Positions 19,116 through 22,924 of a stretch of DNA of 64,000 nt are shown here, piece after piece. Position numbers and translations under genes: made by a program. The DNA is taken from assembly GCF_004364975.1 (NCBI RefSeq), contig NZ_SOBW01000008.1, forward strand, positions 866,610-930,609. The letters are read 5' to 3'. The DNA comes from Gelidibacter sediminis. GTDB taxonomy: Bacteria > Bacteroidota > Bacteroidia > Flavobacteriales > Flavobacteriaceae. Below the pieces are notes generated by a model, which did not search any database, was not told the DNA's origin, and saw only the letters and a list, made by a program, of their open reading frames with translations. The number at the start of each line of letters is the position of its first letter. Position 1 is the first letter of the stretch.

Positions 19116-19149
19116 AAGTAAAAAGTCCTCAAATGAGGACTTTTTACTT
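19116..19149. terminator. strong bidirectional terminator
   Basis: A perfect 15 bp stem (AAGTAAAAAGTCCTC with its complement) and a four-base loop AAAT, with A and T runs on both flanks. It separates the convergent DCC gene and the ATP-grasp operon. Confidence 0.9.
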
Positions 19150-19201: not shown

Positions 19202-20242
19202 TTACAAAGTAGCCAATCGACTATTATAAAGATAGTCACTGTACATGTTTTTATAGTATACCTTGCGTTCAATAGACTCAATAACAGGTGTCGCAAAATT
19301 AGTATCGTACATTTGTCCCATCACATTTAATCCGCCAGGACTAAATACATTAATTTCCATTAATTTGGATCCAACAATATCAATTCCTACTAAAAACATT
19401 CCATCTTGCACCAGTTTTGGTTTAACAATATCCGCCAATTCCATAATCTGATCCGTCATTTTTACCTTTTGAGGTTTTCCTCCTGCATGTATATTACTTC
19501 TAATATCACCTGAAGCGTTTACTCTTTGCATTAAAGCATATTGACCGTTTACTTGTAATGGTTCACCATTCATGATAAAAAGTCGTGTGTCGCCTCCTGT
19601 AGCTTCTGTGAGGTATTCTTGAGCAATTACGAATCCATCTCTACAAATAGCATCTATTGTTTGTGAAAGATTGTGTTCATTCTTTTTATCCATCATAAAC
19701 ACATTTGTACCACCAGATCCCTGCAATGGTTTTAAGATCATTTTTTGCTTTTGTTCCTTAAAAAACTCTTTTATTTCATTATGATCTCTAGTAATGATGG
19801 TTTTTGGGCGAATAATTTCAGGAAAATGTTGGAAATACATTTTATTGACTGCCCCTGCCAAACTACTAGGGTGGTTTAAAACAATGACCCCATTTCTCAT
19901 GGCAATTTCTCCAAAAATAAAAGCGGCATTATAAGCCCAATCACGTTCATTTATTTCATCAGCTGGATTATTTCGCAAAAACAGAACGTCTAAATCTTGT
20001 GATGAAAGGGTCGTAAATTCTTCCTTCTGAACAGCTTTAAAATACGTTTCTTCGCTTTTAAAGGTTTTGTCCTTAACAGTTTTACACCGTACTGACAAAT
20101 GGCCTTTTGAGGCATATGATAATTCTCCAACACCAATAAAAAAGACTTCATGCCCTCTTTTATAGGCCGCAAAGCCCAGTGCAGGTGTTGTGTAATTCCA
20201 CTTTTCTGTGGCATGATCATTTATAATAAAAGCTATTTTCAT
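19202..20242 (-). CDS. GshB-like ATP-grasp ligase (glutathione-synthetase family; substrate uncertain)
   Basis: 346 residues. The N-terminal pre-ATP-grasp domain starts MKIAFIINDHATEKWNYTTP and includes LRNNPADE, as in GshB. The glycine-rich loop is LKPLQGSGGTNVF and the metal site is MEINVFSPGG, equivalent to EINVTSPT in E. coli GshB. The enzyme should join a carboxylate to an amine with ATP via an acyl phosphate. No gshA is in the window and the organism carries bshA, so glutathione synthesis is doubtful. It is the last gene of a tight three-gene operon, starting 12 bases after the DUF1704 gene, with a strong terminator behind it. Confidence 0.85.
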   Translation of the reverse strand: MKIAFIINDHATEKWNYTTPALGFAAYKRGHEVFFIGVGELSYASKGHLSVRCKTVKDKTFKSEETYFKAVQKEEFTTLSSQDLDVLFLRNNPADEINERDWAYNAAFIFGEIAMRNGVIVLNHPSSLAGAVNKMYFQHFPEIIRPKTIITRDHNEIKEFFKEQKQKMILKPLQGSGGTNVFMMDKKNEHNLSQTIDAICRDGFVIAQEYLTEATGGDTRLFIMNGEPLQVNGQYALMQRVNASGDIRSNIHAGGKPQKVKMTDQIMELADIVKPKLVQDGMFLVGIDIVGSKLMEINVFSPGGLNVMGQMYDTNFATPVIESIERKVYYKNMYSDYLYNSRLATL

Positions 20243-20254
20243 TTTTTATATAAT

Positions 20255-22093
20255 TTAATTAACAAGTTCAACAATATTGATGCCTTCACGTAGTTTTTGC
20301 AAACGTATTTTTACATCGTCACGAGCTAAAAACCGAGGTAAAATAGGCTGTTTCAATACCTTGCGGTATAATAATTCTTCAATTAATTTAATATGTGTAA
20401 CATTAAATTTTCCCGTATACAATGGCTCTATGCGGCCACCATTTTCCAAATAGGCCATTAAATCTATCAGACCAGCTAAATACACCGCATCTTTGGTAAG
20501 CCCACCACCTCTATATACACGCATACTTATGTAATAGGCAACCCTATCAGGAAATGCGTAGTCAGTTCTCAAGAGATTAAAAGTTTCAATAAAATTGGCA
20601 TTGTCTATCATGGACTGTACGGCAATCACCCTACCCGCCAACAACCGAAGCCTATTAATAGTCAGGCCACCTACCAAATACTCTGCAATAACAGCCAAAC
20701 CTTCTTGTAATTGATCATAACCTTCAAACCCTTCATGCATTTGTTTTAATGGCTGACTCTTACCATTACAATAGGTTAAAATATGGGTTCCAATTTCGTG
20801 TTGTATGAGGGCATCACACCTATTGACATCCAAATTCATTTCTTCATTGATCAGTAATTTTGATTTTGAAACCATAATGCCTGCCACATCATCCCTAATC
20901 TCAATACCAAGGTCTAAATCTGGAAACTGTTGAATGTAATGGTCCATTTCACGTTGTGCAAACTCAGCAAACTCAATTCCGTTATAACGTTTAGAGCTTT
21001 TTATGGTCTCCGCTTTTGGATAGACTGCTAAGATATGTTTTGCGACATCTAGAATATCTTCCCTTATAACCCCATATAAACTTTCTCCAATAAACCTGAA
21101 ATTATCAGTACCTCGTTCTTCCAACATGATGAGTTGCTTTTCAATTTCAAGACGTTTTCCCCTTAAAATAAAAGCGATGGTAGGATCTTCAATTAGATCT
21201 ATAGGGATGTTATATAATTTTCGTTTTTCGAGCTCCGGGTCAACGGCAAGTAATCTGTACTTAAATGATGGTATCTTTTCATAATTATTTTGTACGAATT
21301 TGTCCCATTCTTCATTGCTATTTACAGGCGTCACTCGAAGCAGAAATGACATGCCTTCACTGATTTCGGCCAATTTGGTGTCAGAAGAAAGGGTGACCGC
21401 GTCAATGTGGGTTTTACCAAGCATCAAATAATTTTCGAAAGCATCGGTAGTTTGTACTCTTATAAATTCGTAAACCGCCCTTTTTATCGTTTCGGAAAAA
21501 ATGGTGTAGAATTTTCTAAAAAACAACGAAAACAATTGATTGGTTGCAGAATTCAAATAAACAGTAGGTACAGATATCCCGATAATAAGCGTTCCCTGTT
21601 TCTTTGACTGTTCCACATCTAGCAAGGGTTTCAGATGCTTAGGGTGTCTAAACTCTGTGTGAATGATTTTAGAGTCTACGTAAGACAAGGTTTTTCTAAT
21701 CTCACTAAAACCTTCCTTGAGAGCATTTACAGTTTCTAAAGATTTGCTCTTAGGACCATAAATTTGAAATTGACTTTTTAATGAGTCGTTATTAGGCCAT
21801 AATTCGAGAATCAAAAATGTTTCAAATTTTTTGGATGTGATCAATCTTATGGCTTCCAAAAGATGCGAAATTTCAACGTTTTCATCAACAATGATGTAAG
21901 ATGCTTGAGTTTTAAGCAATCGTGAAAAATAAACATCCCGTTCTGTATATCGGTAGACACAAATAAACGGGAGTAACTTATCAATATGTAAGAGACCTTT
22001 ATTTGGCAATTCCACATTAACAGGGACATGCTCTGTAATGTTATTACAAATTGTCTCAACTAACTCAGCATCTATATGGTAATCTTCAATCAT
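20255..22093 (-). CDS. DUF1704 / QEGLA-motif zinc metallopeptidase-like protein (MATCAP-related)
   Basis: 612 residues, often labelled flavohemoglobin expression-modulating QEGLA motif protein. The C-terminal half contains a zinc site HEIGTH at residues 432-437 (HExxxH) and the QEGLA motif at 463-467, followed by long helices. This is the DUF1704 family that includes the eukaryotic microtubule detyrosinase MATCAP, so carboxypeptidase-like activity is a reasonable prediction. The N-terminal ~230 residues are a separate domain that resembles the amidohydrolase-like or receiver-type folds seen in this family, without clear motifs. The start codon directly abuts the previous stop, so the two genes are surely co-transcribed. 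Confidence 0.85.
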   Translation of the reverse strand: MIEDYHIDAELVETICNNITEHVPVNVELPNKGLLHIDKLLPFICVYRYTERDVYFSRLLKTQASYIIVDENVEISHLLEAIRLITSKKFETFLILELWPNNDSLKSQFQIYGPKSKSLETVNALKEGFSEIRKTLSYVDSKIIHTEFRHPKHLKPLLDVEQSKKQGTLIIGISVPTVYLNSATNQLFSLFFRKFYTIFSETIKRAVYEFIRVQTTDAFENYLMLGKTHIDAVTLSSDTKLAEISEGMSFLLRVTPVNSNEEWDKFVQNNYEKIPSFKYRLLAVDPELEKRKLYNIPIDLIEDPTIAFILRGKRLEIEKQLIMLEERGTDNFRFIGESLYGVIREDILDVAKHILAVYPKAETIKSSKRYNGIEFAEFAQREMDHYIQQFPDLDLGIEIRDDVAGIMVSKSKLLINEEMNLDVNRCDALIQHEIGTHILTYCNGKSQPLKQMHEGFEGYDQLQEGLAVIAEYLVGGLTINRLRLLAGRVIAVQSMIDNANFIETFNLLRTDYAFPDRVAYYISMRVYRGGGLTKDAVYLAGLIDLMAYLENGGRIEPLYTGKFNVTHIKLIEELLYRKVLKQPILPRFLARDDVKIRLQKLREGINIVELVN

Positions 22094-22924
22094 TTAATTG
22101 GAATAAATATTATAGAAGTTGGAAGCGTGTTCTGGCAATTTCGATTTAAGCCCTTTTCTAATTGCAGAGACAACTTCTGGGAAAATAACCTGACTTTCTT
22201 CATCGCAATAAATTTTAGCCACTTCGGTTGCCAGCACTAAAGTATGATCAAAATGTTCTGTAATGAATTTCAGAAAATAACCATTACCCTGAAAAGTATC
22301 GTTAATTTTGGCTGTATTTGGGATGTCATTAGGCAATTTTATTTTCGAAAGATCTTGTCTCCAATCTTCTATAGAATTTTTAAAACGTTCATTATCTACG
22401 TTTGAAGTTCCTAAATTCCATGTTGGCACTGCCCTATCCCAGCGCTTCCAGTTATAACTATGCATGTCATAAACAATGCAGCAACCAAATTTCTCTTCCA
22501 GAGTTTTAATTAGCGCATAAACAACTCTATAAAAATTAGTGTGCTTTTCCAAACTTTGTGCTTTTTCGACCGCTGTTAAAGGTTCCTTCCACAATTGCTT
22601 GCCCCAGGCATCATCATATATAGCATTCTCAGGATCACGGTTAAGATCATATTCAAATCTTGAATCCATTCCAGAAATGACAATAGGATGATGTTTTACC
22701 ATATTTTCGGTTTCAGGATCTTCTTCATACCAACGCTCATACTCAGTATGTAAACACTTGGACCATAGTGACCTCCTAAATTGATGGCCATTATGCACTG
22801 CAGCACAAGCATACGGCACATAGTCGTCAATTTTTATGGTAAAGGAATAATCCGACGAAACGGCGTGAAATAGTTCTTTAGCTTCTATTTTAGAAATAAT
22901 GTCCTCAATTGATAATTTTTGCAT
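22094..22924 (-). CDS. N-formylglutamate amidohydrolase family protein
   Basis: 276 residues, first gene of the operon. Family features are ACAAVHNGHQFR (metal-binding His), GMDSRFEYDLNR near residue 76, IVYDMHSYN near residue 150 and a late EVAKIYCDE segment with conserved acids. N-formylglutamate amidohydrolases hydrolyse N-acyl-glutamate or related amides using a bound metal, but this COG3931-type subgroup is not the histidine-degradation HutG: no hut genes are nearby. The neighbours (metallopeptidase, ATP-grasp ligase) suggest action on a peptide-like amide. Confidence 0.88.
   Translation of the reverse strand: MQKLSIEDIISKIEAKELFHAVSSDYSFTIKIDDYVPYACAAVHNGHQFRRSLWSKCLHTEYERWYEEDPETENMVKHHPIVISGMDSRFEYDLNRDPENAIYDDAWGKQLWKEPLTAVEKAQSLEKHTNFYRVVYALIKTLEEKFGCCIVYDMHSYNWKRWDRAVPTWNLGTSNVDNERFKNSIEDWRQDLSKIKLPNDIPNTAKINDTFQGNGYFLKFITEHFDHTLVLATEVAKIYCDEESQVIFPEVVSAIRKGLKSKLPEHASNFYNIYSN

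Follow-up and report, generated by a model that had tools for sequence, protein, structure and literature searches.

A conserved amidohydrolase, metallopeptidase, and ATP-grasp ligase operon in Gelidibacter sediminis, possibly a make-and-break unit for an N-acyl acidic peptide

Three minus-strand genes in a 64,000-nucleotide stretch of the Gelidibacter sediminis genome (assembly GCF_004364975.1, contig NZ_SOBW01000008.1, positions 866,610 to 930,609; here, the window) form a compact unit whose products could make and break a small N-acyl acidic peptide. From first to last they encode FG, an FGase-family amidohydrolase of 276 amino acids (aa) (22094..22924); PEP, a 612-aa metallopeptidase of the type we call PEP-long, with a degenerate FGase-like domain plus a MATCAP/DUF1704 domain (20255..22093); and ATPG, a 346-aa GshB-fold ATP-grasp ligase (19202..20242). 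FG and PEP are separated by 0 bp and PEP and ATPG by 12 bases (20243..20254); the open reading frame (ORF) check reproduced exactly the coordinates and the same-strand arrangement given in the initial annotation. We tentatively read the trio as a reversible unit for a small N-acyl acidic peptide other than glutathione. ATPG, using ATP, would couple an amino acid to the carboxylate of an acidic acceptor (an amino acid or a short peptide) that is probably N-acylated; PEP, as a MATCAP-like metallocarboxypeptidase, would take the C-terminal residue off again; and FG, or an AstE/AspA-type enzyme in its stead, would strip the N-acyl group and release the acidic amino acid. That a single operon should encode both a ligase and two hydrolases for one molecule suggests a reversible pool, which might serve for storage, for buffering, or as a signal, possibly an osmotic one. 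We infer every catalytic step from family chemistry, as we do the substrates, the direction, the choice between a small free peptide and a protein tail, and the physiological role.

All three proteins matched their Pfam families over the cut-off: FG matched FGase (PF05013; 48.4 bits versus 28.9, E = 1.7e-12), PEP matched MATCAP (PF08014; 311.4 versus 27, E = 1e-92), and ATPG matched GSH-S_ATP (PF02955; 177 versus 23, E = 3e-52) and GSH-S_N (PF02951; 45.2 versus 21.3, E = 1.1e-11). The family assignments of the initial annotation were thereby upheld, i.e., an amide-forming ATP-grasp ligase, a DUF1704 peptidase related to MATCAP (by fold match and an intact HExxxH plus QEG site), and an amidohydrolase of the N-formylglutamate type, whose family annotation gives N-acyl glutamate as its target.

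That the trio is a unit is shown by the conservation of its arrangement across genomes. Loci were counted by six-frame searches over a 3-kb range, used because greedy ORF calling missed genes (e.g., FG in locus L137). The main sample consisted of named loci, the best 80 of at least 590 candidates, which favor the long type because the alignment was headed by the window PEP; their titles cover Bacteroidota, Planctomycetota, Acidobacteriota, Calditrichaeota, Poribacteria, Campylobacterota, Proteobacteria, and others. A ligase gene was found on the same strand within 3 kb of PEP in 79 of these best 80 loci, the exception being L077, which ends at its contig; two of the 79 ligases (L094 and L109) are cut by contig ends. 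Among 59 relatives, the G. sediminis genome included, PF08014 was present in 23, and the same 23 had an NF009110 ligase match of at least 200 bits, 19 of them over the cut-off and four below it (G021, G029, G037, and G022, of which the last has a partial match at the end of a contig). Across 345 Bacteroidota genomes, PF08014 and NF009110 (E ≤ 1e-60) were each found in 18, with 17 in common. The one genome with PEP only (G241, locus L209) carries a partnerless PEP of the solo clade described below, and the one with a ligase only (G249, locus L215) carries a member of the GshB clade. The expectation that the pairing would be conserved in other genomes was therefore borne out, in several phyla.

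A tree of 83 PEP domains resolved three lineages, a solo clade (16 rows, support 100/100), a short/fused operon clade (22 rows, 99/97, four of them partnerless: L037, L190, L193, and L206), and a long operon clade (45 rows, 100/99). PF08014 was present in 53 of 397 Pseudomonadota genomes, from which 33 regions were picked for variety, i.e., non-randomly. A same-strand ligase was present in 10 of the 33, nine of which also had FG, six as FG-PEP fusions. The initial annotation had named rare co-occurrence of the genes as the finding that would count against a unit; in both operon-type PEP lineages the genes co-occur at a very high rate, whereas the third, mostly from Pseudomonadota, is solo. PEP relatives were also found in 126 records of a plasmid collection, 79 of them from Sinorhizobium and often on large rhizobial replicons (pSymB for the operon of Sinorhizobium meliloti 1021); in the copy from a Phyllobacterium zundukense plasmid (L139), both FG and PEP look frame-broken.

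The ligase is the component that bears most directly on glutathione metabolism. The structure model of ATPG (pLDDT 90.6) found GshB as its best fold match (1gsa; TM 0.81/0.89, E = 4e-25), the protein is over the cut-off of the NCBIfam model NF009110/PRK12458, "glutathione synthetase" (428.3 versus 408), and the GshB residues K125, K160, R210, R225, R233, D273, E281, and N283 are retained in at least 60 of 61 operon ligases. This would fit ordinary or variant glutathione (gamma-glutamyl thiol) metabolism, with ATPG as the glutathione synthetase of its annotation and the two hydrolases turning the thiol over. However, ATPG falls below the cut-offs of both glutathione synthase equivalogs (218.9 versus 272 and 208.5 versus 299.05), and in a ligase tree of 71 rows the operon ligases lie outside the clade (99/96) that unites seven GshB references with the G249 ligase. 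The short/fused operon ligases form their own clade (100/99) adjoining that of GshB (94/81), as the glutathione reading would have it, while the 44 long-operon ligases form a third group, its own fork weak (87/35). The GshB-invariant residues T280, T288, and E124 are absent in 61/61 operon ligases and T285 in 60/61, and the loop that reads NVTSPT(C/G) in the GshB references is NVFSPGG in ATPG (residues 298 to 304; 19331..19351, minus strand). In Shinella sp. PSBB067, the operon ligase and a GshB-clade gene are encoded on different replicons.

The preceding step of glutathione synthesis gave a mixed picture. Of the glutamate-cysteine ligase families, PF04262 was found in 2 and PF04107 in 15 of 37 operon genomes, either in 17, and neither in 20; both were absent in 10 of the 13 genomes with kinship given, the only ones of the 37 for which completeness is stated. 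Taken alone, this absence test is not decisive, because 17 of the 37 genomes do have a member of PF04262 or PF04107; the PF08886 search gave no match anywhere, controls included, and was not used as evidence of absence. Gelidibacter itself has a GCS2-family gene, in another cluster, that is over the cut-off for PRK13515 carboxylate-amine ligase (534.8 versus 371) and below those for glutamate-cysteine ligase (352.7 versus 409 and 305.5 versus 332), i.e., of the YbdK type. Because ATPG lies outside the GshB clade and lacks the acceptor-loop residues, and because 20/37 genomes lack both of these glutamate-cysteine ligase families, a role in ordinary glutathione synthesis is unlikely, and we regard glutathione metabolism in the wider sense, variants included, as very improbable for the trio. 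The initial annotation had left room for an ordinary glutathione synthetase with gshA elsewhere; clade and residues disfavor it, although the YbdK-type gene is indeed present in Gelidibacter.

The second characteristic component, PEP, has an intact metallopeptidase site. The HExxxH motif reads HEIGTH (H432, E433, H437; 20783..20800, minus strand) and was invariant in 60/60 aligned sequences, as were Q463, E464, G465, and A467 of the QEGLA motif (20693..20707, minus strand), in which E464 is the putative third metal ligand; the alignment included four short types and left out L037. Despite this motif, PEP is below the cut-off of TIGR02421, the "QEGLA" flavohemoglobin expression-modulating family (301.3 versus 338.65). 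The sequence left out, a short PEP without adjoining FG or ligase (L037:5907-7058, genome G015), has its motifs altered to HEIGVN and TQAGLA and is likely a pseudoenzyme, because the second HExxxH histidine and the QEGLA glutamate are both lost. The AlphaFold2 model of PEP (pLDDT 92.9, pTM 0.90) had human MATCAP as its closest fold (7z6s/7z5g; Foldseek E = 2.6e-9 to 8.9e-9, TM 0.68 on the target), and the whole-model search also listed other amidohydrolases and carboxypeptidases. HExxxH is likewise the motif of human TMCP1/MATCAP, and the human TMCPs act as carboxypeptidases on tubulin, from which they trim C-terminal residues as well as polyglutamate chains (PMC10499314). By analogy, PEP is predicted to be a carboxypeptidase.

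This kinship also opens another reading, in which the target is a protein C terminus: ATPG would add tail residues and PEP trim them, as RimK/RimB do on ribosomal protein S6 and TTL/MATCAP on tubulin, with FG in a side role. Besides the MATCAP fold, it can invoke the RimK structures, which come next after GshB among the fold matches of ATPG (best-ranked RimK TM 0.67/0.78), and the established antagonistic pair RimK/RimB, a ligase and a peptidase acting on polyglutamate (PMC11957791). It can also point to Photobacterium damselae, where PMC10308900 gives, for 1% versus 3% NaCl, a 38-fold increase for the GshB gene A0J47_RS17020, 27-fold for the QEGLA gene RS17025, and 52-fold for rimK; adjacent numbering, together with the arrangement in Photobacterium sp. 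GJ3, suggests that RS17020 and RS17025 are the operon described here. Against it, ATPG matches GshB better than RimK in fold, is below the rimK_fam cut-off (88.4 versus 143.4), and has PF02951 in place of the Rimk_N domain, to which it had no match. A deacylase of N-acyl amino acids, sometimes fused to PEP, has no evident job on a protein C terminus, and a RimB-like/RimK/AstE cluster is already present in the same genome. We consider tail modification possible but doubtful and favor a small free peptide over a protein tail. Maturation of a graspetide-like natural product, with the ATP-grasp enzyme tying a precursor peptide that PEP then trims, is extremely improbable: PsnB, AMdnB, and PruB do appear as distant fold matches of ATPG, though they rank well below GshB and RimK, and, as a weak counterargument, the neighborhood listings, which cover ORFs from 60 to 70 aa upward, showed no short precursor ORF that was conserved.

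The acyl end of the proposed substrate would be the province of FG. Its candidate metal site comprises H44, D153, H155, and E234, conserved in 51/51 rows of the family alignment; H44 opens the HNGH motif (residues 44 to 47; 22784..22795, minus strand), whose H47 is conserved in 49/51, and D153 and H155 form the DMH motif (residues 153 to 155; 22460..22468, minus strand), the putative metal role being taken from the family. FG had no match among the NCBIfam models. Among the best 80 named loci, the slot held FG in 53, an AstE/AspA-family gene (assigned by PF24827) in 17, both in none, and neither in 10; a stricter recheck at E ≤ 1e-8 changed FG from 53 to 52 and neither from 10 to 11, and three of the 10 deacylase-free loci (L062, L063, and L092) start almost at a contig end. 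In seven genomes with AstE-type operons (those of L091, L108, L112, L116, and L118, plus G015 and G020), FG was absent in six, and in the seventh, G020, it lies inside a separate short-type operon. The deacylase slot is therefore filled by either of two families, both annotated as deacylases of N-acyl glutamate or aspartate; Salinimicrobium and Leeuwenhoekiella are among the genera with AstE-type operons. In eight genomes with PEP-long loci devoid of an adjacent deacylase (L054, L055, L056, L070, L105, L106, L119, and L036), FG was found elsewhere in six, and nowhere in those of L105 and L119.

The long PEP itself bears the imprint of FG. Its N-terminal domain (residues 1 to 240; 21374..22093, minus strand) had no Pfam match, and a novel domain was considered; hhalign related it to the FG family with 94 to 95% probability (E = 1.2e-7 local, 9.3e-9 global). 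One reversed and six shuffled controls all scored ≤0.32%, and unrelated profiles gave 0.11% (ATPG), 0.40% (AstE), and 6.35% over 16 columns (PEP C-domain); with these controls the novel-domain view was rejected and the relation to FG accepted. The PEP model also matched the FGase structure 2q7s (Foldseek probability 1.00, E = 0.067). The domain is degenerate and without the conserved histidines: the D-x-H of the FG site corresponds to E-x-W in the window PEP, and the conserved columns of the PEP domain contain no equivalent of either the HxGH histidine or the DLNR stretch. FG-PEP fusions that retain the FG motifs occur in two Bacteroidota loci, in 6 of the 33 Pseudomonadota loci examined, and in Photobacterium sp. 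GJ3. From these sequence comparisons, our reading is that PEP-long descends from an ancient fusion of FG with PEP, that its FG half has since become catalytically inactive, and that a stand-alone FG or AstE now supplements it. It is because such fusions exist and the long PEP carries the degenerate domain that the enzymes can be argued to work on the same molecule.

Identity patterns add a historical argument. The window FG is 60 to 70% identical to the FGs of eight short-type operons and 27 to 35% to long-type FGs from beyond its close kin (named relatives with 82 to 90% PEP identity are Gelidibacter). The order is reversed for its neighbors: the PEP C-domain shares 28 to 34% with short-type and 35 to 53% with these long-type domains, and ATPG 31 to 33% with short-type (one partial copy 43%) and 39 to 61% with long-type ligases (one truncated copy 33%). 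Several other genomes of the family have a different operon version at the same place. In Winogradskyella (L052), L210, and L211, both ligases are present, the old one upstream of FG and the new one behind PEP-long, and in L036 and L054 to L056 a PEP-long/ATPG pair stands without adjoining FG, which is elsewhere in those genomes. The Gelidibacter operon thus looks like a mosaic, PEP and ATPG having come in together to join an FG that was already there. The simplest account would be that the two move together and displaced first the resident PEP and then the resident ligase; their moving together would be evolutionary evidence of a shared target.

The surroundings of the short-type operons offer a hint of an acidic substrate. 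In six of nine such loci, a symporter gene of the SDF family (PF00375) is found upstream of the ligase, at distances of 16, 36, 36, 44, 46, and 87 bp. The family assignment comes from Pfam in the cases of L029, L035, and the window copy and from clustering in the others; in the window, an EamA transporter gene lies between the SDF gene and the operon. The same transporter would suit peptide scavenging, in which the hydrolases degrade imported or recycled glutamyl or aspartyl peptides and the ligase re-uses or detoxifies the fragments, with no dedicated product. The patchy distribution (18 of 345 Bacteroidota) is in keeping with scavenging too, yet a ligase beside 79 of 80 operon-type peptidases would not be expected of a scavenging peptidase, and we hold this reading to be unlikely.

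Several observations weigh against the N-acyl acidic-peptide cycle that we prefer, or against parts of it. PEP stands without ligase or deacylase within 3 kb in 22 of the 33 Pseudomonadota loci; most lone PEPs fall in the separate deep clade, but L190, L193, and L206 are inside the short/fused one, and L198, a long PEP from Pseudomonadota, has no ATPG within 3 kb. In L074, the ligase copy that shares the strand of PEP is partial, and the nearest complete one is encoded on the other strand. Tandem ligases beside one PEP (three in L076, and further cases in L080, L082, L107, L123, and L128) could mean a longer polymer. The SDF gene is not seen directly upstream in three of the nine short-type loci (L031, L038, and the contig-cut L032), and SDF transporters also carry other substrates. 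On the deacylase side, G823 and G824 had no FG in the genome search and no deacylase beside the operon. The AstE-type protein is below every NCBIfam cut-off that it matched (64.6 versus 170, 57.9 versus 305.65, and 56.9 versus 180), and members of PF05013 and AstE/AspA need not keep the substrates of their founders. FG and AstE as sequence relatives were considered and rejected (hhalign 1.0%); since there is no detectable similarity, their equivalence is one of position and annotated chemistry. The two presumably share a fold, and 2q7s (FGase) and aspartoacylase chains are both weak matches to the PEP model. Finally, a small molecule is preferred to a protein tail chiefly because ATPG has a GshB-type fold and because FG would act at an N-acyl end. 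As to the initial annotation's proposal that the set builds and trims a peptide tail or glutamyl metabolite, the enzyme families and the conserved unit are supported and the reading as a whole is so in part. Separately, two PEPs occur in L063 and L082.

An osmotic or glutamate-buffering role is suggested by one transcriptome, that of P. damselae, and by two analogies. Carried to its furthest, the cycle would be a dedicated and reversible one in several phyla, a counterpart of the brain N-acetyl-aspartyl-glutamate cycle that buffers glutamate when osmolarity falls, with the eukaryotic tubulin-tail carboxypeptidase as kin to, or recruited from, PEP and with the dead deacylase domain of the long PEP kept to bind substrate or to serve as a scaffold; we put this forward as a rather unlikely extension.

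The locus itself is flanked by a DCC1-like/MutS2-like/UDG-like block and an SDF-family symporter/aroC-like block (MutS2, UDG, and aroC read off translations). The strong terminator with which the initial annotation ended the operon corresponds to a hairpin with a 15-pair stem at 19116..19149; it lies between convergent genes and was scored on the plus strand only, i.e., for the neighboring DCC1-like gene. A bidirectional action that would also terminate FG-PEP-ATPG is plausible; the region has five terminator-like sites, compared to 2.7 ± 1.7 in shuffles. LysR-type regulators are found near two fused-type operons (L196 and L220). Extra genes lie between ligase and FG in some short-type operons, a two-domain rhodanese in L035 and L039 (Pfam) and L032 (clustering) and a small protein of about 110 aa in L033 (no Pfam match) and L041; L052 appears, by size, to have both kinds.

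Two further clusters were noted in the same genome. One, outside the window and on the minus strand (G000:C1, about 1294931 to 1297286; L142:1432-3787), encodes a RimB-like protein (Zn_protease/retropepsin, PF05618, below the RimB equivalog cut-off), a RimK over the PRK10446 cut-off, and an AstE/AspA-family protein, i.e., a counterpart of the window operon in all three functional slots, in which the peptidase and the ligase are of other kinds. The other (G000:C2, about 319774 to 324133; L140:775-5134) combines the GCS2/YbdK-type carboxylate-amine ligase with a glutamine-amidotransferase-like protein, a protein that matches R2K-type ATP-grasp weakly and below the cut-off, and one of 399 aa with no Pfam match. 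In L141 (G015) and L143 (G021), a GCS2 gene adjoins a RimK-like ATP-grasp gene, with an RLAN N-terminal domain in L141, making another uncharacterized ligase pair.

Each of the protein families is known, and the trio can be recognized in current genome annotation (Shinella and Roseateles); new are the degenerate FGase domain in PEP, the FG-PEP fusions, and the apparent mosaic origin. In the open-access literature, we found no function for the trio or for any bacterial DUF1704 protein, the P. damselae data being the only ones on expression. If our reading is true, many bacteria, including plant symbionts and marine species, would have an undescribed acidic metabolite or tail modification. The current labels of glutathione synthase, N-formylglutamate amidohydrolase, and "flavohemoglobin expression-modulating" protein are probably misleading. 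To our knowledge, the MATCAP family is known only from tubulin, and it would gain a bacterial setting with a ligase partner.

Compared with described systems, the operon is not a member of the GshB, RimK, or RimB families. E. coli GshB (1gsa) has both domains, the fold, and the ATP-grasp catalytic residues in common with ATPG, which differs in its separate clade, its lost acceptor-loop residues, and its linkage to a peptidase and a deacylase. MATCAP/TMCP (KIAA0895L and KIAA0895) share PF08014, HExxxH plus the third glutamate, and the fold (E about 1e-9) with PEP, at 17 to 18% identity in the structural alignment; PEP adds the degenerate FGase-like domain and the ligase and deacylase context. 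RimK/RimB (and RimA) in S6 polyglutamylation likewise pair an ATP-grasp ligase and a peptidase, the latter undoing or tuning what the former makes, and the conserved ligase-peptidase linkage of such antagonistic pairs is seen here in 79/80 loci; by this analogy, PEP would hydrolyze the ATPG product. An AstE/AspA-family gene even stands beside the RimB-like/RimK pair of Gelidibacter, but RimB is an aspartic retropepsin and PEP an HExxxH metallopeptidase, and RimK has a Rimk_N domain where ATPG has GSH-S_N. RloABC of Pseudomonas aeruginosa also places a peptidase and an ATP-grasp protein in one operon, with RloA proteases needed under hypo-osmotic stress and cleaving glutamate-rich sequences; it differs in its secreted aspartic protease and membrane transglutaminase-like partner and, in the part of its description available, includes neither MATCAP nor FGase (PMC12239564).

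Two small-molecule systems are also comparable. The osmolyte trio for NAGGN (TIGR03103 etc.) resembles the operon in the ATP-grasp synthesis of an N-acyl dipeptide and in its hydrolase gene, and differs in having an acetyltransferase-ligase fusion and an amidotransferase, neither of which was seen in the window operon. The mammalian N-acetyl-aspartyl-glutamate cycle consists of the RIMKLA/B ligase, the carboxypeptidase GCPII, and aspartoacylase, the same three reaction types as those proposed for the trio, and the AstE/AspA family is common to it and to some of the operons. Its ligase branch and carboxypeptidase family are different ones, and the likeness drawn here is one of reaction types.

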